From the NCBI GenBank assembly GCA_903834465.1, contig CAILJB010000094.1, positions 1 to 64,000 of the forward strand: 64,000 nt of DNA, given 5' to 3'. This stretch comes from an uncultured Pseudomonadota bacterium (GTDB lineage: Bacteria; Pseudomonadota; Gammaproteobacteria; Methylococcales; Methylomonadaceae). The notes below the pieces were generated by a model. The model had not been told where the DNA came from. It was given only the letters and a program-made list of their open reading frames with translations, and ran no database searches. A program made the translations under genes and the position numbers. Position 1 is the stretch's first letter. Every line of letters begins with the position of its first letter. Shown here one piece after another: positions 44,617 to 58,479 of the stretch.

Positions 44617-46695
44617 ATGTCTATCGATATGTCACAATTTCATCAAGTCTTCTTTGAAGAATGTTTCGAAGGCTTAGAGGCGATGGAATCTGGATTGTTG
44701 TCGCTCGATATTGGCGACATTGATTCAGAAGTTATCAACACCATTTTCAGGGCAGCACACTCCATCAAGGGCGGTAGTGGCACATTCGGTTTTACCGTCG
44801 TTGCCGAATATACCCATATCATGGAAACGCTACTCGATGAAATGCGTGACGGACGTAGACAGGTAACAAAGCCTGCGGTGGATGTTTTATTAGGCTCTGT
44901 GGATTGTTTACGCGAAATGTTAACATCAATTCAAAATGAAGAAGATGTCAATATGTCGAGCGTGGCAAAACATCAAGCCGCGTTAGAAATAGAATTAAAT
45001 GGAAAAGCCAGCGGTGGCGATCACGCACCAGCAGCAACGCATGCAGCGGCTCCCGCACCTGTTGCTGTCCACGAAGAGCCTGAACCAGAAGAAGAGGAAA
45101 TTGAAGAAGAACAAGGTTGGAAAATTGCTTTCTGCCCGTATTTGAGTTTACTTAAAACTGGCAATGATCCTGTTCGTTTATTTCGAGAACTTAGTGCATT
45201 AGGGACATTGACATCAAATGTCAATATTCAAGACGTACCTCCTTTTGCTGAATTAGACCCCGAAGAATGTAATATTTCTTGGGAATTAAAATTAGTCACA
45301 GATGCCACAGAAGCGGCGGTACGCGAAATCTTTAGCTGGGTTGAGGAAGATTGCGCGTTAGAACTTGCTCCGTTAGCCAAACCAAAAAAAGCTAAAAAAC
45401 CTAAAGCTGCGCCTGCACCGGTTGTTGAGGCAGCTCCTGTACCTGTTGTTGAAGCTGCTCCCGCACCTGCGGCTGCTAAAAAAGCAGCACCAACAGAATC
45501 TGATCCATCCAAAAATGCACCTAAAGCCTCCAGTTCGATTCGTGTTGATACCGACAAAATCGATACCTTAATTAACATGGTGGGCGAAGTGGTCATTACC
45601 CAATCGATGCTTGGTTTGATTGGTGAAAATTTCACGATGGATAAAGTGGGACAATTAAAACGTGGTTTAGCGCAATTAGAACGTCACACCCGTGATTTAC
45701 AACAAAGTGTGATGAATATTCGAATGTTGCCAATCAGCTTCGTTTTCAGCCGCTTCCCGCGCTTAGTACACGATATTAGTACCAAATTAAATAAAAAAAT
45801 TACGCTCAAATTAGTCGGTGAAAACACCGAAGTTGATAAAGCCGTTGTCGAGTTAATTAACGACCCGTTAGTGCATTTAATTCGTAACAGTTTAGATCAC
45901 GGTATTGAAATGCCTGCCGAGCGTCTTGCCGCTGGTAAACCCGAAATGGGAACGATTGAATTAAAAGCCTACCATCGCGGTGGTCACATTGTGATTGAAA
46001 TTGTCGATGATGGTCGCGGTATGGACAAAAGTAAATTACTCGCTAAAGCTATCGAAAAAGGCTTAGTCGATGAATCCACGATTATGTCCGACAAACAAAT
46101 TCTTGAATTGATTTTCATGCCTGGTTTTTCGACCGCCGAACAATTGACAGATATTTCCGGACGCGGCGTGGGCATGGACGTTGTGCGTCGAAACATTCAA
46201 TCACTAGGCGGAAATATCGATATTATTTCTGAACTGGGTAAAGGTTCGACCATTGCGATTCATTTACCATTAACACTGGCAATTTTGGATGGTCAATCGG
46301 TTGCCGTCGGCGATGAAACCTATATTGTGCCGCTAGTTTCGATTATTGAATCGATTAACATCACCGAAAAAATGCTCAACAAAGTTGCCGGCAAAGGTGA
46401 GACATTCAAATTACGCAATGAGTATTTGCCCATCATTCGAATGCGCGAAATTTTCAATGTGAAATCCGGTGCGGCAACGAAATCGAATGAAGGCGTGATT
46501 GTTGTTGTTGAAGGACAAGGCGCATTATGCGGCTTCTTGGTTGATGAATTACTCGGTCAACAACAAGTGGTCATTAAATCCTTGGAAGCCAACTATCGCC
46601 GCGTTGAAGGCGTGTCGGGGGCAACCATTTTAGGCGACGGTTCGGTAGCGTTAATTCTCGACGTGCCTGGTTTAGTGCGCCTTTCAGTGCGCTAA
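44617..46695 (+). CDS. cheA: Chemotaxis histidine kinase CheA
   Basis: 692 residues. P1/Hpt at 1-110 with His 48 (AAHSIKGG); an acidic linker; a middle domain at about 165-255 (GWKIAFCPYLSLLKTGNDP), typical of many proteobacterial CheA proteins in place of the classic P2; an Ala/Pro/Glu linker with VVEAAP repeats; P3 dimerisation at about 305-370; P4 ATPase with DPLVHLIRNSLDHGIE and the G boxes; P5 CheW-like domain at about 545-690. It autophosphorylates and feeds CheY and CheB. A sigma-54-like promoter lies just upstream. Confidence 0.96.
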   Translation: MSIDMSQFHQVFFEECFEGLEAMESGLLSLDIGDIDSEVINTIFRAAHSIKGGSGTFGFTVVAEYTHIMETLLDEMRDGRRQVTKPAVDVLLGSVDCLREMLTSIQNEEDVNMSSVAKHQAALEIELNGKASGGDHAPAATHAAAPAPVAVHEEPEPEEEEIEEEQGWKIAFCPYLSLLKTGNDPVRLFRELSALGTLTSNVNIQDVPPFAELDPEECNISWELKLVTDATEAAVREIFSWVEEDCALELAPLAKPKKAKKPKAAPAPVVEAAPVPVVEAAPAPAAAKKAAPTESDPSKNAPKASSSIRVDTDKIDTLINMVGEVVITQSMLGLIGENFTMDKVGQLKRGLAQLERHTRDLQQSVMNIRMLPISFVFSRFPRLVHDISTKLNKKITLKLVGENTEVDKAVVELINDPLVHLIRNSLDHGIEMPAERLAAGKPEMGTIELKAYHRGGHIVIEIVDDGRGMDKSKLLAKAIEKGLVDESTIMSDKQILELIFMPGFSTAEQLTDISGRGVGMDVVRRNIQSLGGNIDIISELGKGSTIAIHLPLTLAILDGQSVAVGDETYIVPLVSIIESINITEKMLNKVAGKGETFKLRNEYLPIIRMREIFNVKSGAATKSNEGVIVVVEGQGALCGFLVDELLGQQQVVIKSLEANYRRVEGVSGATILGDGSVALILDVPGLVRLSVR

Positions 46696-46735
46696 TTTTT
46701 CCTGAATTAACCACAAACTTACACAGAAAACCGTT

Positions 46736-47257
46736 ATGTCACAAGAAAATGAAACACCCGCCGTTGAGGCTGTCCTAGGACAAAACACACCAGAAATCAC
46801 TAATACAATTCAGTATTTGAGTTTTGTATTGGGTAAGGAAGAGTACGGGGTTGATATTTTGCGTGTACAAGAAATCCGCAGTTGGGAACCTGTCTCGCGC
46901 GTTCCGAACGTTCCGCCTTATGAAAAAGGGGTCGTGAATTTGCGTGGTGCAATTGTACCGATTATCGATTTACGCGAACGTTTTAGTCTGAGCAAAGTGG
47001 AATACACACCGCTGACAGTCGTCGTCGTTTTGCAAACCGGCAGCGGCAGTCACACCCGTATTATGGGCGTAGTGGTCGATTCTGTTTCTGATGTAATTAG
47101 CGTCGATAAAGCTGAAATTCAAGGCGCACCGGATTTTGGTACTAAAGTCAGTAACGAATTTATCAACGGTCTTGTTTCCGTCAGCGAGCGTATGGTGATG
47201 TTGCTCGATGTCGATAAATTATTAACACTCGAATCGTTTGAACAAAACGAAAATTGA
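46736..47257 (+). CDS. cheW: Chemotaxis coupling protein CheW (first copy)
   Basis: 173 residues, one CheW domain: LSFVLGKEEYGVDILRVQEI, VPNVPPYEKGVVNLRGAIVP and DLRERFSL. It links receptors to CheA. A second CheW (49668) is similar in all these blocks, so the two may assemble different arrays or share one. Confidence 0.95.
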   Translation: MSQENETPAVEAVLGQNTPEITNTIQYLSFVLGKEEYGVDILRVQEIRSWEPVSRVPNVPPYEKGVVNLRGAIVPIIDLRERFSLSKVEYTPLTVVVVLQTGSGSHTRIMGVVVDSVSDVISVDKAEIQGAPDFGTKVSNEFINGLVSVSERMVMLLDVDKLLTLESFEQNEN

Positions 47258-47296
47258 TTTTTTGGCATAAATGACCTTTTAACAGGACGCGCTGCA

Positions 47297-49618
47297 ATGA
47301 AAACGAATATGCCAATTACAAATCGCGAAATTGTGATGAAACCGGGAACTATTCTGGTTACTCGAACGGATTTAAAAGGTTTAATTACGTTTGTAAATGA
47401 CGATTTTTTAGAAATTAGCGGTTATTCGCGTGATGAACTAATTGGTAAAAATCATAACATTGTACGACATCCTGATATGCCCGCTGTGATATTTGAAGAA
47501 ATGTGGAATACCTTAAAAAAAGGTAATCCGTGGCATCGCGTCATTAAGAATCGCACAAAATCCGGAGATTTTTACTGGGTAAGCGCGAATATCACGCCCG
47601 TTTTTGAAAATGCCGTCATACGCGAACACATGTCTGTTCGACATGCACCAAGTCGCACTGAAATTGATGCCGCCGACCAGTTATATCGTAAAGTAAACGA
47701 AAATAAAGCCACGCTGCATTCGACAGGTTTTAATGCCCTATGTAAATCTCTTCAAGAAATTGCCGCATGGAAAAAATTAACATTTGCTTCCAGTCTGTTT
47801 CTTGCGCCAAATGCGTTTTTGATGCAAAACCTGTTCAACGATGGCAGTTATGGTTTATTAGCAGGCGTTGCGACACTTTCTGTTCTCGGCGCAATGATTG
47901 TCACGCATGTCGTTAAAGACACCGAACGCTCTTTGGAAGAATCGATTGATAAACTGTATCAATTAAGTGCGAATAAATTTAGTAAATCCCTTAATTTAAG
48001 ACTCGATGATCAATTTGGCGATTTATTTCGGGCGATTTATGCAACGGGCGTTAAATTAGGTGATGATTTAGCACACGTTAAACAATCCAATTCCGAATCA
48101 TTGCGTATCATTCGCGGTTTAGAAACAGTGCAATCAAGTGTTTTGATTACTAATTCAAATTTTGAAATTATTTTTGTGAATTTAGCGGCGAAAAAATTAT
48201 TTGCGAATGCTGAAGCAGATATACGAAAACAATTGCCCAATTTCAGAGCCGATAAATTGCTTGGCACGAGCATCGATATTTTCCATACAAATCCCGCTTA
48301 TCAACGTAATTTATTAAGTAATTTGCGCGATTCAGTTACTGCCCATCTTGAATTAGCTGGTCGAACCATGCAAGTAATTGCACAACCTGTCATCGCTGAA
48401 AATGGCGAACATATTGGTTTTATCGCAGAATGGCAAGACCGAACGTTAGAAAAACAAACGGAACACGAAATTGAAGAACTCGTAAATTCAATTAAAGTCG
48501 GTGATTTAAGTGCGCGTATTAACGTAAACGATAAAGAAGGGTTTACTAAATCATTATCGATTAACATCAATGGCTTAACCGATGTGATTGAAAATGTATT
48601 TAATGACATCAATCGCGTCATTGAACAAATGGCAGGCGGGGATTTAACGCATAGCATTCATGCCGATTACCAAGGTACTTACGCGCAATGCAAAGACAAT
48701 ATCAACGATGCAATTGCCAAAATTAGTCAATTCATTATTCAAATTCGGGATGCCGCAGATTTCGTCAATAATTCGTCACAAGAAATGGCAAGTGGTAACA
48801 ATAATTTGTCACACCGTGTCGAGCAACAAGCTGGAAGCCTTGAAGAAACAGCAGCAAGTATGCACGAGTTGTCCAGTACCGTAAAAAGTAACGCGGAAAA
48901 TACGCAACAAGCTACTAACGTCGTACAAACGGCAACGCAACTCGCTGAAAAAGGCGGGGATGTGGTGAAATCGGCGATTACAGCAATGCAAGAAATTAAC
49001 GAAAGTAGTAATAGAATTGCCGAAATTATTGGTGTGATTGATGAAATTGCCTTCCAAACGAATTTGCTTGCCTTAAATGCGTCGGTGGAAGCGGCACGCG
49101 CGGGTGAGCAAGGACGCGGTTTTTCAGTTGTGGCTACCGAAGTAAGAAATTTAGCACAACGCAGTGCCACGGCTGCCCAACAAAGTAGTGAACTGATTCA
49201 GAATAGTGTACAAAAAGTTCGCGCTGGCACGGCATTTGTTAATGAAACAGGTGCGGCATTGATGGAAATTGTCGACAGTATTATTAAGGTCGGTGACATT
49301 GTGGGGCATATTACCGAATCGAGTAATGAGCAATCGGCAGGAATTAACCAAGTCAATCAAGCCGTTGCACAAATGGACGATATTACGCAGCAAAATGCCG
49401 CATTAGCTGAACAAGCCGCAGCCGGTAGTATGGCAATGAGCGAACAATCCGCCAACATGACAGAATTACTCAGTTTCTTCAAAGTCAGTGGAAAATCGGC
49501 ATCATCTGCTATACGTCAAAATGCCAGCACACCCATAAAATCGATTACTAAACCGAAATCCACTGCCTACGCCCCTTCATCAGCAAAAAATAGTGGCGAT
49601 GATTGGGAAGAGTTTTAA
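47297..49618 (+). CDS. Aer-like PAS chemoreceptor with C-terminal CheR/CheB tether
   Basis: 773 residues. N-terminal Aer-type PAS at about 15-125 (GLITFVNDDFLEISGYSRDE, NIVRHPDMPAVIFEEMW), which in this class usually binds FAD to sense redox or oxygen; two membrane segments around 165-205 without a periplasmic domain; a second PAS-like region at about 275-390; a HAMP-like region; the MCP signalling domain with the tip IAFQTNLLALNASVEAARAG; and the C-terminal DDWEEF, a WxxF-type pentapeptide that binds CheR/CheB/CheD in other bacteria. Located inside the che operon. Confidence 0.92.
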   Translation: MKTNMPITNREIVMKPGTILVTRTDLKGLITFVNDDFLEISGYSRDELIGKNHNIVRHPDMPAVIFEEMWNTLKKGNPWHRVIKNRTKSGDFYWVSANITPVFENAVIREHMSVRHAPSRTEIDAADQLYRKVNENKATLHSTGFNALCKSLQEIAAWKKLTFASSLFLAPNAFLMQNLFNDGSYGLLAGVATLSVLGAMIVTHVVKDTERSLEESIDKLYQLSANKFSKSLNLRLDDQFGDLFRAIYATGVKLGDDLAHVKQSNSESLRIIRGLETVQSSVLITNSNFEIIFVNLAAKKLFANAEADIRKQLPNFRADKLLGTSIDIFHTNPAYQRNLLSNLRDSVTAHLELAGRTMQVIAQPVIAENGEHIGFIAEWQDRTLEKQTEHEIEELVNSIKVGDLSARINVNDKEGFTKSLSININGLTDVIENVFNDINRVIEQMAGGDLTHSIHADYQGTYAQCKDNINDAIAKISQFIIQIRDAADFVNNSSQEMASGNNNLSHRVEQQAGSLEETAASMHELSSTVKSNAENTQQATNVVQTATQLAEKGGDVVKSAITAMQEINESSNRIAEIIGVIDEIAFQTNLLALNASVEAARAGEQGRGFSVVATEVRNLAQRSATAAQQSSELIQNSVQKVRAGTAFVNETGAALMEIVDSIIKVGDIVGHITESSNEQSAGINQVNQAVAQMDDITQQNAALAEQAAAGSMAMSEQSANMTELLSFFKVSGKSASSAIRQNASTPIKSITKPKSTAYAPSSAKNSGDDWEEF

Positions 49619-49667
49619 TTTAATAACTGAATAACGCCAACTAAATAATCCGTAGGGAATGACAGTC

Positions 49668-50189
49668 ATGACAACCGATGTACATAGTAAACAAATTGAA
49701 CAATTTTTGACCTTTGAACTCGCCAACGAAGTGTATGGCGTGGAAATTCTGAAAGTTCAAGAAATTAGGGGCTGGGAAGCGGTGCGCGTCATTCCCAATG
49801 CACCGTCTTTTATTAAAGGCGTATTGAATTTACGCGGTTCGGTGATTCCTATCGTTGATTTACGCGAACGGTTTTCACTTGAACATTGCGAATACACGCA
49901 CAAAACCGTCGTTATTGTGTTGTGCGTCAAACATCATCGCACTGATACATTTGTAATGGGTATTGTTGCCGATGCGGTTTCAGATGTGCTTGATATTAAA
50001 CGTAGCGAAATCAAAAAAGCTCCGAATTTTGGTTCGCAATTAGATACCCGTTATATGCGCGGTATGCACGTTTATAAGCAAAATATGATTATGTTATTAG
50101 ATGTGGATAAATTGCTTAATCCCGATGAAGTGGACGATATGGATGCCATTTCTGATTCTGTTTCTGCTGACTCGGAAGATTTTCTGTAA
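49668..50189 (+). CDS. cheW: Chemotaxis coupling protein CheW (second copy)
   Basis: 173 residues with the same blocks as the first CheW: LTFELANEVYGVEILKVQEI, VIPNAPSFIKGVLNLRGSVI and DLRERFSLEH. The ATG at 49668 lies nine bases from TAGGGA; an ATG nine bases earlier has no room for an RBS. It overlaps parA by one base (TAATG). Confidence 0.94.
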   Translation: MTTDVHSKQIEQFLTFELANEVYGVEILKVQEIRGWEAVRVIPNAPSFIKGVLNLRGSVIPIVDLRERFSLEHCEYTHKTVVIVLCVKHHRTDTFVMGIVADAVSDVLDIKRSEIKKAPNFGSQLDTRYMRGMHVYKQNMIMLLDVDKLLNPDEVDDMDAISDSVSADSEDFL

Positions 50190-50962
50190 TGACCAGATTA
50201 GTCGCCATTATTAACCAAAAAGGCGGGGTTGGAAAAACCACCACCACAGCGAATTTGTGCCACGCACTCGCTGAATTGGGCAAAAAAGTGACGGTTATTG
50301 ATTTTGATCCGCAAGGGCATTTAGCTGTTTCCTTTGGTCTCATTTCGCACAACGTAAGTGGCATTGATGCCGTAATGCTCAAAGAAAAAACCATCGAAGA
50401 ACAAGCATTACTAGTACGCGAAAATTTGCAACTCATTCCTGCTGGTTCACGATTGAAAGATGTTGAGCAAATGAGTAATACAGGCGCACCGCGTGGCGTA
50501 TTATTGCGTGATGCGTTGCGAGGTCAATTAACCGATCAAGATTTTGTCTTTATTGATTGCCCACCGTCATCGGGATTGCTAGTTGCAAATGCGTTAATTG
50601 CCACACGCGAAATTTTAGTACCGATGGCAAGTGATTTTCTTGCACTGCAAGGTTTGTCACATTTAATGGCAACGGTTAAACGTTTTGAAGGCGCATTAAA
50701 AAGACAATATAAACTGTCAGTCGTTATTTCACGTTATATGTCCACGCGCCGCATTTCCGGTCAGGTTTTAAATATTTTACTGTCGCACTTTCCAAATCAA
50801 GTGCTTTCAACAGTAATTCGTGAAACAGCGTTACTGGCAGAGTGTCCGAGTTTTGGACAAACCATTTTGGAATACAGTCCGAAAAGCCGTTCCGCAAGAG
50901 ATTTCCGTAACCTTGCCAATGATTTTCTTGAAGATAGGGTAATGACAAATGACAACAAATAA
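50189..50962 (+). CDS. parA: ParA-type ATPase of the chemotaxis cluster
   Basis: 257 residues. Deviant Walker A KGGVGKTT (residues 11-18), Walker A' DFDPQGHLA and FIDCPPSSGLL as Walker B. Chromosomal partition ParA proteins sit by parB; this one is instead between cheW and a STAS protein, as in the ParC/PpfA proteins that position chemoreceptor arrays. So its role is probably array placement at cell division. The stop lies 14 bases inside the next gene. Confidence 0.88.
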   Translation: MTRLVAIINQKGGVGKTTTTANLCHALAELGKKVTVIDFDPQGHLAVSFGLISHNVSGIDAVMLKEKTIEEQALLVRENLQLIPAGSRLKDVEQMSNTGAPRGVLLRDALRGQLTDQDFVFIDCPPSSGLLVANALIATREILVPMASDFLALQGLSHLMATVKRFEGALKRQYKLSVVISRYMSTRRISGQVLNILLSHFPNQVLSTVIRETALLAECPSFGQTILEYSPKSRSARDFRNLANDFLEDRVMTNDNK

Positions 50963-51668
50963 TTTAATTGGTTACGATCCATTAGCATGGATGGATGGCG
51001 AGGCTATCGAAGAGGAAGTACCACCCGCTCCTCCTGCTAAAAAAGTAACCAAATCCAGAGCAAAAGCCAAAGCAGAGCCTGTTGAAATTGCAGAAGAACC
51101 TGTTACAGTTGCTGTAGAAGACGAAGAACCTACCGCAGAATTATCGGAAGCTACTGTCGAGCCAATCGTTGACAATGTAGAAGCAAGCGTTGAAATGGAT
51201 GTGACCATCGATGAAGACGGCGACATTGAAATTTCTATTGAAGCAAATGAAGATGCTCATGTATCCGTCGAAATTTCTATTGATGCGCCACAAAGTGATG
51301 ACGAAGTCATCGATGCTATTGTCGAAGAGGTCACTGAGGAAGTCAGCGAAACATCTGTCGAAGAAGTTGCAAAAGCACCAGAAGAAAAAATCGAACCGCT
51401 TATTGAGTTAGGCGCAGATGCGACGATTAAAAACATTGCAAAACTTTACAGCACGATAAAACGCGCATTAGACGTTCACAATACGATTGAAATCAACGCT
51501 TCTGATGTAACAACCATCGATACTGCAACCTTGCAATTATTAGTTTCTCTAAAAAAAGATGCGCCGTGTTTGAATAAAACCATCGACATTATTTATCCTT
51601 CTGCACGCTTTATCGAATCGGCAAAATTGCTAGATTTGTTATCAATACTTGATGTAACTGAGTCTTAA
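50949..51668 (+). CDS. Acidic protein with C-terminal STAS domain
   Basis: 239 residues. A short conserved-looking N-terminus (LIGYDPLAWMDGE), then a strongly acidic Glu/Val/Ala linker at about 18-150, and a C-terminal STAS-like domain at about 155-235 (HNTIEINASDVTTIDTATLQ). STAS domains bind partners such as anti-sigma or kinase-like proteins; the phosphorylatable Ser/Thr would lie near VTTIDTATL. It overlaps parA by 14 bases, so it is likely its partner, filling the place of ParP in other systems; this is inference. Confidence 0.75.
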   Translation: MTTNNLIGYDPLAWMDGEAIEEEVPPAPPAKKVTKSRAKAKAEPVEIAEEPVTVAVEDEEPTAELSEATVEPIVDNVEASVEMDVTIDEDGDIEISIEANEDAHVSVEISIDAPQSDDEVIDAIVEEVTEEVSETSVEEVAKAPEEKIEPLIELGADATIKNIAKLYSTIKRALDVHNTIEINASDVTTIDTATLQLLVSLKKDAPCLNKTIDIIYPSARFIESAKLLDLLSILDVTES

Positions 51669-51704
51669 TGTGAGAAATCACCTCAAGGGAAATGCGTTAC
51701 TGAT

Positions 51705-52541
51705 ATGGCTATCGTAGAAAAAGAACGTGAGTTTAAATTTACCGTTGACGATTTCAATGTTTTAAGAAAATTATCGAACACATATTCTGGCATTCAAGTG
51801 CCAGATGAACGTTTTGATATGTTTTACTCTCGCCTGTCTAAACGTGTTAGAAAGTTAGGATTAAGAGATTTCAAAGAATATTGTCAGTATTTAAATAATC
51901 ATCCCGATGATGAATTTACGGAATTTATTAACGCGATTACGACCAACCTAACTTCTTTTTTTCGTGAACAACATCATTTTGATTATTTGCGGGATGTCGT
52001 CATTCCAGAATTATTGATGCGAAACAAAGCTACAAAACAAATTCGCATTTGGTCGGCAGGTTGCTCAACTGGTGAAGAACCTTATTCCATCGCGATGACG
52101 ATGTTGGAAAATATGCCTGCTGATTGGGATATTAAAATTCTAGCCACCGATTTAGATACTAATGTGTTACAAACCGCTTCTGATGGTATTTATACACAAG
52201 ACCGCGTCACAGATTTGTCACCTGATATTTTAAAACGTTGGTTTATGAAAAGTAAGTCATCGCCCAATCACGTCAAAGTTAAATCTGAATTGCAGCAAAT
52301 TATTCAATTTAAACAATTAAATCTCATGCAAGAATGGCCCATGAAAACGCCGTTTGATGTTATTTTTTGCCGCAACGTACTCATCTATTTCGATCGTGAA
52401 ACAAAAGCCACGCTAGCAAAACGATATGCTAAACTGTTGGTCAGTAAATCTTGGTTATTTATTGGACATTCAGAATCATTGAATCAAATTTGTAATGAAT
52501 TCGAATTAGTAGCAACCACCAGTTATAGAAAAAATACATAA
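51705..52541 (+). CDS. cheR: Chemoreceptor methyltransferase CheR
   Basis: 278 residues. N-terminal helical domain, SAM motif IWSAGCSTGEEPYSIAMTM, TDLDTNVLQTA, and the C-terminal DVIFCRNVLIYFD. It methylates glutamates in receptor signalling helices; the Aer-like receptor here ends in a tether motif that CheR proteins of one class bind. Five bases from cheD. Confidence 0.96.
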   Translation: MAIVEKEREFKFTVDDFNVLRKLSNTYSGIQVPDERFDMFYSRLSKRVRKLGLRDFKEYCQYLNNHPDDEFTEFINAITTNLTSFFREQHHFDYLRDVVIPELLMRNKATKQIRIWSAGCSTGEEPYSIAMTMLENMPADWDIKILATDLDTNVLQTASDGIYTQDRVTDLSPDILKRWFMKSKSSPNHVKVKSELQQIIQFKQLNLMQEWPMKTPFDVIFCRNVLIYFDRETKATLAKRYAKLLVSKSWLFIGHSESLNQICNEFELVATTSYRKNT

Positions 52542-52545
52542 ATAA

Positions 52546-53181
52546 ATGAGTTTAAGTCAAATTGATAGACCCTCCATTCGAGGTTTTGATCACGTCAATC
52601 GTTATTTAGACAGAGATCACGGCGTTATCGCAGCGAAAATATTACCCGGTGAATATTACGTTACGTCAGAAAATGAATTGATTACAACGGTGTTAGGATC
52701 GTGCATTTCGGCGTGTGTACGAGATAAAGAATCAGGGATTGGTGGGATGAATCATTTTATGCTGCCAGAAACTACTGAAGCAAAAATGAAACAAGGCAGC
52801 GATGCCATGATTGGTAATGCCACGCGCTATGGCAATTATGCGATGGAACATTTAATCAACACCATTTTATCAAACGGCGGTAAACGTAAAAATTTAGAAG
52901 TAAAAGTGTTTGGCGGGGGAAAAATTATTCCGACATTAAGCGATGTCGGTCAAAGTAACATCAATTTCATTTTGGATTATATTGACCAGGAAGGATTGTT
53001 ACTCGTTTCTCAAGATTTAGGGGATATTTATCCGCGCAAAGTCATTTATTTTCCGCAAACAGGAAAAGTCGGTATGAAGAAAATTCAAGATTTACATAAC
53101 GACACTATTGCACAACGTGAACGTCAATATTCAAGAAATATTAAAGATTTACCTGTCGAAGGTGATGTTGAGCTATTTTAG
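52546..53181 (+). CDS. cheD: Receptor glutamine deamidase CheD
   Basis: 211 residues. Catalytic Cys in TVLGSCISACVRD and His in GGMNHFMLPE, plus the FGGGKIIPTLSDVGQ region. It deamidates receptor glutamines and in some bacteria works with CheC or CheB. Start ATG is preceded by AAATA with little RBS signal, so coupling to cheR is likely. Confidence 0.95.
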   Translation: MSLSQIDRPSIRGFDHVNRYLDRDHGVIAAKILPGEYYVTSENELITTVLGSCISACVRDKESGIGGMNHFMLPETTEAKMKQGSDAMIGNATRYGNYAMEHLINTILSNGGKRKNLEVKVFGGGKIIPTLSDVGQSNINFILDYIDQEGLLLVSQDLGDIYPRKVIYFPQTGKVGMKKIQDLHNDTIAQRERQYSRNIKDLPVEGDVELF

Positions 53182-53228: not shown

Positions 53229-54302
53229 ATGAATAAAATCCGCGTTTTGATTGTTGACGATTCATTGTTAATTCGAAAAGTATTGACCAGTATACTCAGC
53301 ACCGCCCCCGATATTGAAGTGGTTGGAACGGCTGAAGATGCTTTTGTTGCAAGAGAGATGATTAAGCAACTCAACCCTAACGTACTGACGTTAGATATTG
53401 AAATGCCGCACATGGATGGCATTACGTTTTTGCGTAATTTGATGCGTTTACGTCCGATGCCGGTGGTCATGATTTCGACCTTGACCGAACACGGTGCAGA
53501 AGCCACATTAGATGCTTTGGCATTAGGCGCAGTCGATTTTGTATCAAAACCTAAAATTAACGCTGAAAATACATTAGCTGCTTATTCCGACGAAATTATT
53601 TCTAAAGTTCGCAGTGCAGCACGCACAAATGTGAGTGCAATGACATCGCGCGAACAACCACCGCCAGTTATAAAAGAAGTCGATAACGCCATGCAACGCA
53701 TCATTTCAGCACGGACAGTAGGCTTTAATAAAATTGTCGTGCTAGGTTCCTCTACGGGCGGCACGGAAGCGATTAAAGTGGTCATGAGAAATATGCCTGC
53801 GGACAGTCCGCCTATTTTAATTACCCAACATCTGCCTGCCGCGTTTAGTGAATCATTTGTTAATCATATTGATTCGATAACCCAAATGACCGCCAGTATT
53901 CCTGTGCATGGTCAAGTGGTGGAATGGGGCAATATTTACCTCGCACCCGGAACGCATCACATGGAAGTGATTCGTAGCAATAATCAATACGTTATTCAAC
54001 TACAAAATGGCGACCCCGTTAATCGTCATAAACCGTCCGTCGATGTGTTATTTCATGCGGCGGCAAAATGTGCAGGTGAAAATGCGGTATGCGTTTTGCT
54101 TACAGGAATGGGAGCAGACGGCGCGGTTGGCATGCAAGCCATGAAAGCCGCTGGGGCAAAAACAATTATTCAAGATGAAGCGTCGAGTGTGGTTTGGGGA
54201 ATGCCCGGTGCGGCATTTAAACTGGGTTGTGCCGATCATGTTGTGCCATTGGATGACATTGCCGCTAAAATTTTGACGCTGGTTAAATCCGGTTTGCGCT
54301 AA
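53229..54302 (+). CDS. cheB: Chemoreceptor methylesterase CheB
   Basis: 357 residues. Receiver at about 1-120 (VDDSLLIRKVL, LTLDIEMPHMDGITFLR, VDFVSKP) and the esterase domain at about 165-355 with Ser in LGSSTGGTEAIK, His in ITQHLPAAF and Asp in LLTGMGADGAVG. It removes methyl groups from receptors when phosphorylated by CheA. Confidence 0.96.
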   Translation: MNKIRVLIVDDSLLIRKVLTSILSTAPDIEVVGTAEDAFVAREMIKQLNPNVLTLDIEMPHMDGITFLRNLMRLRPMPVVMISTLTEHGAEATLDALALGAVDFVSKPKINAENTLAAYSDEIISKVRSAARTNVSAMTSREQPPPVIKEVDNAMQRIISARTVGFNKIVVLGSSTGGTEAIKVVMRNMPADSPPILITQHLPAAFSESFVNHIDSITQMTASIPVHGQVVEWGNIYLAPGTHHMEVIRSNNQYVIQLQNGDPVNRHKPSVDVLFHAAAKCAGENAVCVLLTGMGADGAVGMQAMKAAGAKTIIQDEASSVVWGMPGAAFKLGCADHVVPLDDIAAKILTLVKSGLR

Positions 54303-54361: not shown

Positions 54362-54970
54362 ATGAACAGTCAGACAAAATCACAATTTATTGCCGTTGCC
54401 TCGATTACGTCGGAATTGAGTGCGGTTATGGTCGTGGCAAAAGAAATTTCTTTAGCTGCTGCTAATGCGAAGGCAATTGCGTTTCGCGCAGGTGACAAAG
54501 CAAAAGGCTTTCAACCCATTACCGATTTTATTAACGAACTTGCTAAAGAAACAATTGAGTTAGTCACAAATATCAACGTGTACGCGCTGTTATTGTATCG
54601 TTTGACGGTGAACGAATATCGCCGCACTGCCGCGTACAATCGTTTTGAACAAGTGGCAAAACTCGCTGTTGGCGCAGAATATGCCGATTCGATGCAAGAA
54701 CCCATCGCTCAAGCAAAAACCATCATGCAAGATTGCCAACGCCAGTTTAAACGTGACGTGACGCAATTGTTGGGGCAATTAGAAGCGGTCATGCACCACG
54801 CGCGAGCGGCACGCGTTATTGCGGCGAACTCGCGAATTGAAGCCTCACAAGCAGGTGAATATTTGCAAAGTTTACAAGCCGTCGCAGAAAGTGTCGATAA
54901 AGCCGCACACACCATTCATGATAATGTGCAACGGTGTCGAATCGCATTATCGATTTATCGCAATAGTTAA
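54362..54970 (+). CDS. MCP-like protein with two degenerate hairpin-tip repeats
   Basis: 202 residues, all helical, with no signal peptide, membrane helix or sensor domain. Residues about 29-61 (ISLAAANAKAIAFRAGDKAK, then GFQPI..NELA) match the MCP signalling tip of the form LLALNASVEAARAGEQGRGF. Residues about 150-182 (ARVIAANSRIEASQAGEYLQ) are a second, weaker copy. A normal receptor monomer has one tip, so this looks like a soluble, minimal or decoy receptor fragment that could contact CheA/CheW. The next gene (ODP-like) starts 19 bp later, suggesting they work together. Confidence 0.7.
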   Translation: MNSQTKSQFIAVASITSELSAVMVVAKEISLAAANAKAIAFRAGDKAKGFQPITDFINELAKETIELVTNINVYALLLYRLTVNEYRRTAAYNRFEQVAKLAVGAEYADSMQEPIAQAKTIMQDCQRQFKRDVTQLLGQLEAVMHHARAARVIAANSRIEASQAGEYLQSLQAVAESVDKAAHTIHDNVQRCRIALSIYRNS

Positions 54971-54989
54971 AAAGAGGAGCATTATTTCC

Positions 54990-55718
54990 ATGAAAATGAC
55001 CAAGATTTACGAAGGAGCGCACCAATGGGTAATGTTTGGACGCGACGAAAATAAACCCGATAATATTATTGATAGCAATCAATACATTGTTCGGACTGCA
55101 AACAAATGTTTGTTGCTTGAACCAGGTGGCACGGAATTATTTGCGCCGATGATGGCAGCCGTTTTACATCATGCGCCTGTTGAACAAATCACCGATTTGT
55201 TTGCCTCACACCAAGACCCTGACGTGATTTCGTCATTGGGTTTGTGGGATCAAGCATTATCAAATGCAAAATTACACGCCCCTGCCCTTTGGGAAGGTTA
55301 TATTCGTCACTTTGGCTGTGAATCAATCGAATATGTGCCGATTCCTGATAATGGCGAAACGATTAAATTAGAATCGGTCGAGTTACAAATTATTCCCGCG
55401 CATTACTTGCATTCGCCTTGCAACTTCCATGTTTATGATCCTGTCGCTAAAATTTTAATGACCGGAAGCGTGGGGTCTGCTTGGGAAGGTGCGAACGCGC
55501 CTGTATTTGTCGAACGCTTTGATAGTCACGTTGAAAAAATGCGTTATTACCATCAACGTATGATGCCGTCGAACCAAGCTAAACGCGCGTGGATTGATCG
55601 CGTTAGAAATTTAGACATCGAAATTTTAGCCCCTCAACACGGTCGTATGTTTAAAGGCGACGATGTTAAACGTTTCTTAGATTGGTTTGACGCACTGCAA
55701 GTCGGTACGGGTGTGTAA
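54990..55718 (+). CDS. ODP-type metallo-beta-lactamase-fold oxygen/iron sensor protein
   Basis: 242 residues of the ODP family (oxygen-binding di-iron proteins related to the MBL part of FprA flavoproteins), some of which report O2 or Fe2+ to chemotaxis kinases. Putative ligands are seen in SHQDPD (His 74, Asp 76, Asp 78), AHYLHSPCNFHVYDP (His 138, 141, 147) and APQHGRM (His 217). The usual bridging Asp in the TGDxG motif is replaced by Ser 160 (TGSVGS). The ATG at 54990, after AAGAGGAG, avoids a 171-base extension overlapping the previous gene. Last gene of the che operon. Confidence 0.82.
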   Translation: MKMTKIYEGAHQWVMFGRDENKPDNIIDSNQYIVRTANKCLLLEPGGTELFAPMMAAVLHHAPVEQITDLFASHQDPDVISSLGLWDQALSNAKLHAPALWEGYIRHFGCESIEYVPIPDNGETIKLESVELQIIPAHYLHSPCNFHVYDPVAKILMTGSVGSAWEGANAPVFVERFDSHVEKMRYYHQRMMPSNQAKRAWIDRVRNLDIEILAPQHGRMFKGDDVKRFLDWFDALQVGTGV

Positions 55719-55803: not shown

Positions 55804-56607
55804 CTACTGCCGTTCTATCTTGAGAAATTCAACACCAATTAGTTCATTAAACGCATCATCACCGTCCGTAATTTCATGGAATCGTACAGTTCGTTTCGAC
55901 ATAATTTTAAAAGAGACGTTAATTTCATCTTGATTAGGCGTGACAATTCTGCACTTTTCATAAGTGGTATGCGGTGTCAAAAAGTAAGAAAGCTCCTCGT
56001 CGCAATTTAACATTGAGCAACCCGATTGACTAATGTCATACAATTCCAATTGAACCAAGTTTATTAAAATCTCACTTGCTTTAGCGTTGAATTTACGACT
56101 TTTCTCAGATTTATCAAATAATTTTTGTCTTATCTTATCAGTAGCTGCTGTATAGTTTTGCTTGTATTCCAAAGCCGAATCGTGTTGCGGCATAGGCAGT
56201 ACAATTTCACAAAAACAAAAAATAGAGTCATGCACAGGAATTTTCATTCGTGAATGTCTGCGGCGATTGCACCAATACAACGAACTTGGAATATACATCA
56301 AAAATACAGTGTGACCTTTATAATTTACTTTCTTAATAGCTAAACCAGTGAACGCAACGTGAATATTGCGAAATATCGCGTTAAATTCAACACTAGACAC
56401 ACTTACCATTTTCGTATTCAACTGACTCGATCCGCTGCACTTTAAAATAAGTCTGCTATCTTCAATATTTATTTCAATAATAGACGTTAATAAACTTTCA
56501 TTCTTACCAAAATTTGCCGTTATTTCGCATTTATGCTCAACAAGTATCGATAATTTTTCAATTATCGTCATTCGATTGTGAATCATTGAAAATCTATCGT
56601 TATTCAT
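55804..56607 (-). CDS. YcgR-like PilZ protein (flagellar brake type)
   Basis: 267 residues. N-terminal YcgR-like beta domain at about 15-110, then a PilZ domain with the c-di-GMP site RRRHSR (residues 115-120) and LYDISQSGCSML (D/NxSxxG type) near 201. An insertion rich in Lys and Glu separates them (about 140-190). YcgR proteins slow the motor when c-di-GMP binds. Its setting beside flagellar and che genes, with a GGDEF protein elsewhere in the window, fits. Confidence 0.82.
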   Translation of the reverse strand: MNNDRFSMIHNRMTIIEKLSILVEHKCEITANFGKNESLLTSIIEINIEDSRLILKCSGSSQLNTKMVSVSSVEFNAIFRNIHVAFTGLAIKKVNYKGHTVFLMYIPSSLYWCNRRRHSRMKIPVHDSIFCFCEIVLPMPQHDSALEYKQNYTAATDKIRQKLFDKSEKSRKFNAKASEILINLVQLELYDISQSGCSMLNCDEELSYFLTPHTTYEKCRIVTPNQDEINVSFKIMSKRTVRFHEITDGDDAFNELIGVEFLKIERQ

Positions 56608-56778: not shown

Positions 56779-58479
56779 ATGATTGATGGAATAGAAAATG
56801 GGCTGGCTTTTAAATTAAACTCAAACAGTCTCAAATTATTTGCAGTTGTTACACCTTGCAACGATAAAATTGAACTGACTGCAGCAATTGTCAAAGCACA
56901 TTTAGAACAAAAGCATTTTTCACATTTATTTATCAATGACTATTTAGTTTTTGATTTAGTGTATCGCTATAACCACGCCACCAGCGAAAGTTTTGAATTC
57001 GAAATTGGCGAACAACGAGACGCGACTTGTGAAATCTCTCTTTCTGACGATATGATGCAAGCCTATTTGACGCTAACACCAAATTTCGGTGGTAAGAATG
57101 TTACACTTTCTGACGCGCAGAAATTATTACAGGAAAAAGGGATTGTTTGGGGCGTTGTATCTACAGAAGAAATTGAAGCAGCTTTAGCAGAAGGACAGGT
57201 TTCTAAATTTGTTATCGCACAAGGATTTGAGCCTGTTGAAGGTGTTGATACACAATTTTTAAGTTTGATTCCAGAAATTGAACAAAACGAACGTAAACCA
57301 CTCGTTAATGAAGATGGGGTTGTCGATTACCGCGAATTAGGCGACATCGTCATTGTACATAAAGATGCTGTATTGGTTCATCGTATTCCACCTGTAAAAG
57401 GTGAAGATGGTCGCAATGTTTTGGGGGAAATTGTTAAACCTAGTGGTGGGGCAGATATTCCCTTTTCAGGTGATAAAAAAGGCGTTTGCATCAATCCTGA
57501 AGACGAAAACCAACTCATTTCAACTATTACTGGACAACCTGTTTTAGTGCCGCATGGCATGATTGTATTACCCGTTTTGACGGTAAAGCGCGTCGATTTA
57601 TTGTCGGGAAATATTCGTTTTAATGGTTCGGTCGTCGTTAATGGCGATGTTAAAGAAGGCATGAAAATTTTTGCACTCGAAGATATTACAATTGATGGTA
57701 ATGTTTTCAGTTCAAGAATTGAGTGTATGGGAAATTTGGTTATTAAAGGAAGTGTGACAGGAAATACCGAATTACTTGCAGGTGGCGGTGTAATTGTTAA
57801 AGGCGGTCTTCAAGGCTATAGCAAAACCGAAAATCAAAAAGACGAAGAACACGCAGCAAAAATTATTACCCGTGGTTCGGTCTGTATTGGTTTTGCAGAA
57901 AATTTTGTTATTGAAGCAGGCGTGGATATTGTTATTGATAAATACTCAATGAATAACCATTTAATGGCGCAAAACAAAATCGTCATCGGTAGCAAGATGG
58001 GAGGGACAAAATCAGCCATTATTGGTGGTGTGACGTGGGCAATGATGCTAGTAAAAGCAACCCTAATAGGTTCAAGTTCGGGTATGAAAACACGCATTCA
58101 AGTTGGTAGCAATCCTCATGTTCAAAAACGCGTGGCAGAAATAAAGAGTGCATTTGCATTAAATGCAAAAAGTCAAAGTGATATTAAAACTGTTTTGACA
58201 TTTATTGAAAATCACCCTGAAAAAAGAAACGAAGAAACACTGGAAAAATTACATCACACATTGAGTAAATTGATTATTGAAGCCGATGCGTACCATGCCG
58301 AATTAGGAGAGTTAATCGAAAATATGACGAACATTGAAGATGCAAAAGTTATTGCCACTTTCGGTATTTACACAGGCAGTGAGATTCAAATTAACAACGT
58401 ATCCTGGAAAGCACAAGAAAACCGTGGTAAAAGTGTTTTTAGACTTGTCAGACGCGAGATGAGCATCACAACTCGTTAA
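56779..58479 (+). CDS. FapA family protein (DUF342)
   Basis: 566 residues. N-terminal domain at about 1-170, then the DUF342 core with LVHRIPPVKGEDGRNVLGEI, a Gly/Val-rich right-handed beta-helix region at about 290-440 (GNIRFNGSVVVNGDVKEGMK), and a C-terminal helical/coiled region at about 450-560. FapA-like proteins are linked to polymer-forming or cell-division/motility scaffolds; the precise role here is unknown. The 171 bp before it contain only A/T-rich sequence and no clear promoter. Confidence 0.85.
   Translation: MIDGIENGLAFKLNSNSLKLFAVVTPCNDKIELTAAIVKAHLEQKHFSHLFINDYLVFDLVYRYNHATSESFEFEIGEQRDATCEISLSDDMMQAYLTLTPNFGGKNVTLSDAQKLLQEKGIVWGVVSTEEIEAALAEGQVSKFVIAQGFEPVEGVDTQFLSLIPEIEQNERKPLVNEDGVVDYRELGDIVIVHKDAVLVHRIPPVKGEDGRNVLGEIVKPSGGADIPFSGDKKGVCINPEDENQLISTITGQPVLVPHGMIVLPVLTVKRVDLLSGNIRFNGSVVVNGDVKEGMKIFALEDITIDGNVFSSRIECMGNLVIKGSVTGNTELLAGGGVIVKGGLQGYSKTENQKDEEHAAKIITRGSVCIGFAENFVIEAGVDIVIDKYSMNNHLMAQNKIVIGSKMGGTKSAIIGGVTWAMMLVKATLIGSSSGMKTRIQVGSNPHVQKRVAEIKSAFALNAKSQSDIKTVLTFIENHPEKRNEETLEKLHHTLSKLIIEADAYHAELGELIENMTNIEDAKVIATFGIYTGSEIQINNVSWKAQENRGKSVFRLVRREMSITTR

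Follow-up and report, generated by a model that had tools for sequence, protein, structure and literature searches.

A conserved gene pair for a double-tip, chemoreceptor-like protein and an ODP-family protein with a replaced metal ligand in a methanotroph chemotaxis locus

The two genes that follow cheB in the chemotaxis operon of a gammaproteobacterial methanotroph form a real module that is kept across many gammaproteobacterial families. The first encodes a small protein with two degenerate tips of the methyl-accepting chemotaxis protein (MCP) type, referred to below as the double-tip protein, and the second encodes a member of the ODP family. Both were found in a contig stretch of 64,000 nucleotides (the window) from a Methylobacter-like host, whose nearest matches are Methylococcaceae MAGs and Methylobacter. 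We consider it probable that the pair acts as a cytoplasmic, bipartite module that provides input to the chemotaxis array, with the double-tip protein as the docking part and the ODP as the predicted sensor. A broader proposal is offered tentatively. According to it, the double-tip protein would represent a class of single-chain, pseudo-dimeric receptor tips, whose hairpins are specialised for different array contacts and plug a separate sensor into CheA/CheW arrays, while the ODP of freshwater methanotrophs would have been rebuilt around a lost bridging ligand and would give a different signal.

The coordinates of the pair and of the neighbouring che genes are summarized in Table 1. Open reading frame calls agree with the first-pass annotation in placing a 202-residue frame directly after cheB, which ends at position 54302, and 19 bp before the ODP gene. 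In the che operon upstream of cheB, the receptor and the STAS protein were named by Pfam, cheA has its dimerisation domain at 45529-45720, and the other names come from reading of the sequence and from shared synteny. The ParA-like gene and the acidic STAS-domain gene occupy positions 50189-51668 within this operon, and ParA also adjoins cheW in distant che operons. Downstream of the pair are a gene for a YcgR N-terminal (PilZN) family protein (55807-56607, minus strand) and a gene for a FapA-family protein (56779-58476, plus strand).

Table 1. Coordinates of the double-tip/ODP gene pair, of selected sites within it and of the upstream che genes in the window
Feature	Position	Strand	Details and evidence
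Double-tip mini-chemoreceptor gene (putative)	54362..54970	+	202 aa; ORF, Pfam, family profile, AF2 model
Tip 1	54425..54535	+	residues 22-58; centre N35 = Tsr N381, R42 = R388, G49-F50 = G395-F396
Tip 2	54788..54895	+	residues 143-178; centre N156/E160 = Tsr N381/E385
ODP-family metallo-beta-lactamase-fold gene	54990..55718	+	242 aa, ATG at 54990; PF19583, PDB 6qrq/6qnm
ODP codon 160 (AGC, Ser), bridging Asp metal ligand in other ODPs	55467..55469	+	alignment to 6qrq/6qnm
ODP codon 144 (Cys)	55419..55421	+	fixed in Ser160 clade, Ala/Gly elsewhere
cheB, last gene of upstream che operon	53229..54302	+	Pfam CheB_methylest and Response_reg
Rest of che operon: cheA, cheW, PAS-PAS-HAMP-MCP receptor, cheW, ParA-like, STAS protein, cheR, cheD	44617..53181	+	ORFs

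The pair recurs as a unit in other genomes, a point on which the first-pass annotation had let its reading depend. Altogether 22 strong matches to the double-tip protein were detected in a sample of 369 gammaproteobacterial genomes, and all 22 adjoin an ODP gene, on the same strand and directly upstream of it. Such strong matches are confined to Gammaproteobacteria in the phylum sample. At Methylococcales loci, the ODP gene directly follows the double-tip gene wherever the contig continues. The genomic surroundings of the pair vary: relatives at 33-36% identity carry it just upstream of cheY-cheA, in other che clusters a paralogous pair at about 25% identity separates cheW from cheR, and many genomes have it away from che genes within the 2.5 kb examined. 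When the ODP genes were taken as the starting point (80 loci fetched), a short helical gene was found upstream in all 26 loci of the double-tip-linked subfamily. The double-tip profile matches 25 of these upstream genes; the remaining one, at locus L182, is divergent, and its assignment was made by visual inspection. No MCP-like neighbour was found within about 2.5 kb of ODP genes from other subfamilies, at roughly 54 loci of the class sample. In a 127-leaf ODP tree, the double-tip-linked ODPs group together in a single clade (n=51, support 0.97), to which those of T. denticola and T. maritima do not belong. Both genes of the pair are under strong purifying selection, with dN/dS of 0.01-0.04 at dS of about 1 or more.

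Several variants of this gene arrangement were also noted. Two tandem double-tip genes are followed by one ODP gene at L096:3431-4638. The genome of the window has a second ODP gene of another subfamily (G000 C86:9555-10136, L158), which lies between exonuclease-like and GGDEF-EAL genes and has no receptor partner. ODP genes from outside the class adjoin genes for roadblock/LC7 proteins and GTPases or occur near those for GGDEF proteins. For instance, ODP genes at loci L248-L257, from one family of the same phylum, are located between roadblock/LC7 proteins and, at several loci, an MglA-like GTPase, hinting at an ODP input to a different signalling system.

The first-pass annotation described the first protein as carrying two MCP tip-like repeats, and profile searches were positive, with both tips in register at the level of the family. 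On the basis of these comparisons, the similarity to MCPs is weak but real. The MCPsignal family of Pfam matches the double-tip protein in two stretches at E=1e-4, with 22.6 bits versus a gathering score of 34.6, and the curated cut-off of PF00015 is thus not reached. MCP tips in the PDB are matched at E of about 2e-4 by the single sequence and at E=4e-10 by the family profile. This profile was built from 29 non-redundant members and was slid ungapped over the MCP profile, whereby the exact MCP tip register came out as the best of 169 offsets for tip 1 and of about 175 offsets for tip 2 in every window tried; for tip 2, its score was 1.5 to over 2 times that of the runner-up, depending on the window. 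Compared with each other, the two halves of the family likewise score highest in the matching tip register. When members were tested singly, most had tip 1 in the tip register, whereas single-sequence HMM scores placed most of the tip-2 halves out of it, so the second tip is a claim about the family. The double-tip protein contains no membrane, sensor or other domain detectable by Pfam, its helices are about 50 residues each in the AlphaFold2 (AF2) model, and the methylation helices of MCPs are missing as well.

This register also bears on the idea that the similarity to MCPs reflects coiled-coil background and that the first gene encodes some unrelated helical protein of chemotaxis, for example a phosphatase of the CheZ type. 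CheZ is likewise helical and about 200 aa long, and since a CheZ (PF04344) match was found nowhere in the genome, its role could be vacant. However, the double-tip protein itself gave no Pfam match to CheZ, and both tips stand in exact MCP register, including the NA, G..GF and EA motifs, when compared with shuffles and offsets. We regard this explanation as highly improbable, and the CheZ identity was rejected for lack of a match in either the protein or the genome.

The predicted shape agrees with a receptor tip folded within one chain. The AF2 model of the window protein (pLDDT 86, pTM 0.74) has helices at residues 2-47, 50-101, 108-161 and 165-200, and a divergent subfamily was also modelled as a bundle (pLDDT 93, pTM 0.84), for which DSSP merges helices 1 and 2 into one at 2-98. 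About 170 residues of each model can be superposed at 2 A on up-down four-helix bundles made of a single chain, including 5vju, with Z of about 17, and 1yo7; high Z-scores against designed helical bundles are evidence of fold only. The fold search yielded generic four-helix bundles, with no MCP tip chain prominent among them, a result of little weight, since Foldseek works on one chain at a time. In a bundle running up-down-up-down, both tips lie at one end, as in the tip of an MCP dimer but within one chain. The double-tip protein is modelled as a compact single-chain four-helix bundle with its tips at the same end by topology, and it is presumably a monomer.

The residues retained in the two tips differ considerably among the 29 non-redundant members. 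In Tsr numbering, tip 1 keeps the equivalent of N381 in all 29 members, R388 in 20 and F396 in 26, with G395-F396 conserved along with N381, while E385 is kept in none. Tip 2 has the equivalent of E385 in 25 of 29 members, N381 in 11 and R388 in only 7, and the position of F396 is occupied by Leu in 25. Alignment to Tsr thus indicates that the tips diverged in opposite ways and that the canonical contact set is divided between them. The tips appear to be specialised, and this division may bear on docking. In receptor trimers, the ionic lock between dimers is made by E385 and R388', and F396 stacks there as well (PMC8144572). With E385 and R388' placed on different tips, the usual trimer packing may not be achieved, and a role as a decoy is conceivable. 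As a decoy or brake, it would fill receptor positions or CheW/P5 sites in the array without activating CheA, and the ODP would control its availability, so that the logic would be a spacer added or removed and not a conformational signal. The absence from each tip of some residues needed for canonical contacts speaks for such a role, as does the more ordered CheA that was seen in T. denticola arrays upon deletion of the ODP (PMC7666581). On the other hand, tip 1 shows strong conservation of its interface residues, which would be expected if binding is productive, and the reported precedent modulates CheA activity. A decoy seems unlikely to us.

The second protein belongs unambiguously to the ODP family, as the first-pass annotation had it. 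PF19583 matches it at E=1.8e-66 over profile positions 1-194 of 194, and the solved structures 6qrq and 6qnm are matched at E=1e-58 and E=1e-50, respectively. The same cannot be said of the proposal, made along with this assignment, that a di-iron site provides an oxygen or iron input. The di-iron O2-sensor subtype is defined by six ligands (H, D, D, H, D, H), of which the window ODP keeps five (H74, D76, D78, H141 and H217), and the bridging D160 is replaced by Ser. Around the bridging Asp, the two solved ODPs and the majority of relatives share the motif SGDIGAA, where the window ODP has TGSVGSA. Among 57 Methylococcales ODPs, residue 160 is Asp in 42, Ser in 14, all from the genus of the window, and Lys in one, from Methylocucumis (L090). 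Within this genus, every ODP of the double-tip-linked type that was examined has Ser160 (14 distinct sequences). The proposed di-iron input is thus not supported, and O2 sensing of the Treponema type cannot be assumed for the window genus.

A pseudogene explanation for Ser160 was rejected. In the Ser clade dN/dS is 0.013-0.042 at dS of about 1 or more, and all 18 genomes of the genus carry the gene, so decay does not account for the substitution. In Methylocucumis oryzae Sn10-6, the double-tip gene is spread across two frames by a frameshift (L090:5995-6607) and the ODP has Lys160; here, decay of the pair is possible.

An alternative is that the ODP of the window genus is no longer a metal sensor, and that the pair was repurposed with the ODP as a structural subunit or as the receiver of some other signal. 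This fits the substitutions at position 160 in the genus and in Methylocucumis, as well as the ODPs of two Methylobacter-like species (L081 and L083), which have lost H74 and H141 instead of D160. Every ligand loss in the 127-leaf tree falls within this group of methanotrophs, and the Ser clade is still under strong selection. However, the other five ligands are kept in the window ODP. In addition, B3 metallo-beta-lactamases retain a two-metal site with Ser at the position corresponding to ODP 160, so metal binding by a Ser160 ODP is still feasible. Cys144, located three residues after the ligand H141, is fixed together with Ser160 and is Ala or Gly elsewhere; it might, speculatively, act as a compensatory ligand. 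Taken together, we view repurposing as possible but doubtful.

In the bipartite input module that we favour, the double-tip protein would be a receptor stub lacking sensor and membrane parts, and two tip hairpins of its one chain would mimic, as a monomeric four-helix unit, the kinase-binding end of an MCP dimer. Homology and strict gene coupling suggest the receptor/CheA-P5/CheW layer as its probable docking site and the double-tip protein as the binding partner of the ODP, such that the state of the ODP metal site would change CheA activity; we infer its direct contacts with CheA/CheW and with the ODP on these grounds. The ODPs of most of the family have the full set of six di-iron ligands, and O2/Fe(II) sensing is likely for them. 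In the window genus, the signal would probably be a changed state of the metal site, such as another metal, a single metal, or altered O2 chemistry or redox, and a peroxo di-iron signal of the Treponema type is less likely. Action of an ODP on a chemotaxis kinase, which the first-pass annotation stated as known, has an experimental precedent in T. denticola. There, the ODP is linked to TDE2496, a homologue of MCPs that lacks membrane and sensing parts and modulates CheA (PMC7666581), and the ODP reportedly binds to its receptor in a manner that depends on conformation (PMC6978683).

According to the summary in PMC7319448, a 2019 paper reported operons that combine ODP and MCP genes in either of two orders, and coupling between ODPs and receptors is thus known. 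What seems to be new is a partner with two tips in a single chain, along with a lineage whose ODP has lost the bridging ligand; no description of either was found in a limited literature search. The same operons agree with a more ordinary interpretation, namely that the pair is the gammaproteobacterial version of sensorless receptors paired with ODPs and that the double tip is nothing special; TDE2496 might itself share the double tip. Against this interpretation, which we find rather unlikely, Tm14 of Thermotoga maritima has one central tip per 213-aa chain, and here two tips are accommodated in 202 aa. Should the double-tip protein indeed dock like a receptor dimer within one chain, it would represent a chemoreceptor reduced by nature to a minimal form, in which sensing is separate from array contact. 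It would then aid the understanding of how arrays accept non-standard members and offer a small tool for structural work. The strongly selected Ser160 clade is a natural experiment on the role of the ODP metal site, and it sits beside close methanotroph relatives in which this site is intact.

Several known systems resemble the pair in part. Flavodiiron proteins share with the ODP a beta-lactamase-like di-iron fold and the spacing of the ligands; in contrast to them, the window ODP stands alone without a flavodoxin domain and lacks the bridging Asp. DosM of Vibrio cholerae, a long receptor with two full signalling domains, likewise has two MCP signalling tips in one polypeptide, but the tips described here are about 40 aa, degenerate and, as modelled, folded side by side. 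A 644-aa frame in the same genome (G000 C8:34721-36073) has two separate MCP signalling-domain matches and is reminiscent of DosM. The T. denticola system of ODP (TDE2498) and TDE2496 is similar in that an ODP gene is paired with a receptor gene whose product lacks membrane and sensor parts, as observed for all 22 strong matches and at the Methylococcales loci. However, the T. denticola and T. maritima ODPs keep all six ligands and do not cluster with the double-tip-linked ODPs, whereas the window ODP has Ser160. Tm14 (PDB 3g67, 3g6b and 4jpb) is the other close counterpart, being a small cytoplasmic receptor of similar length without a sensor domain, and it is among the best PDB sequence matches of the double-tip family profile. 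The Tm14 assembly is dimeric and its helices are about twice as long, whereas the double-tip protein would combine its two tips on short helices into a single-chain pseudo-dimer.
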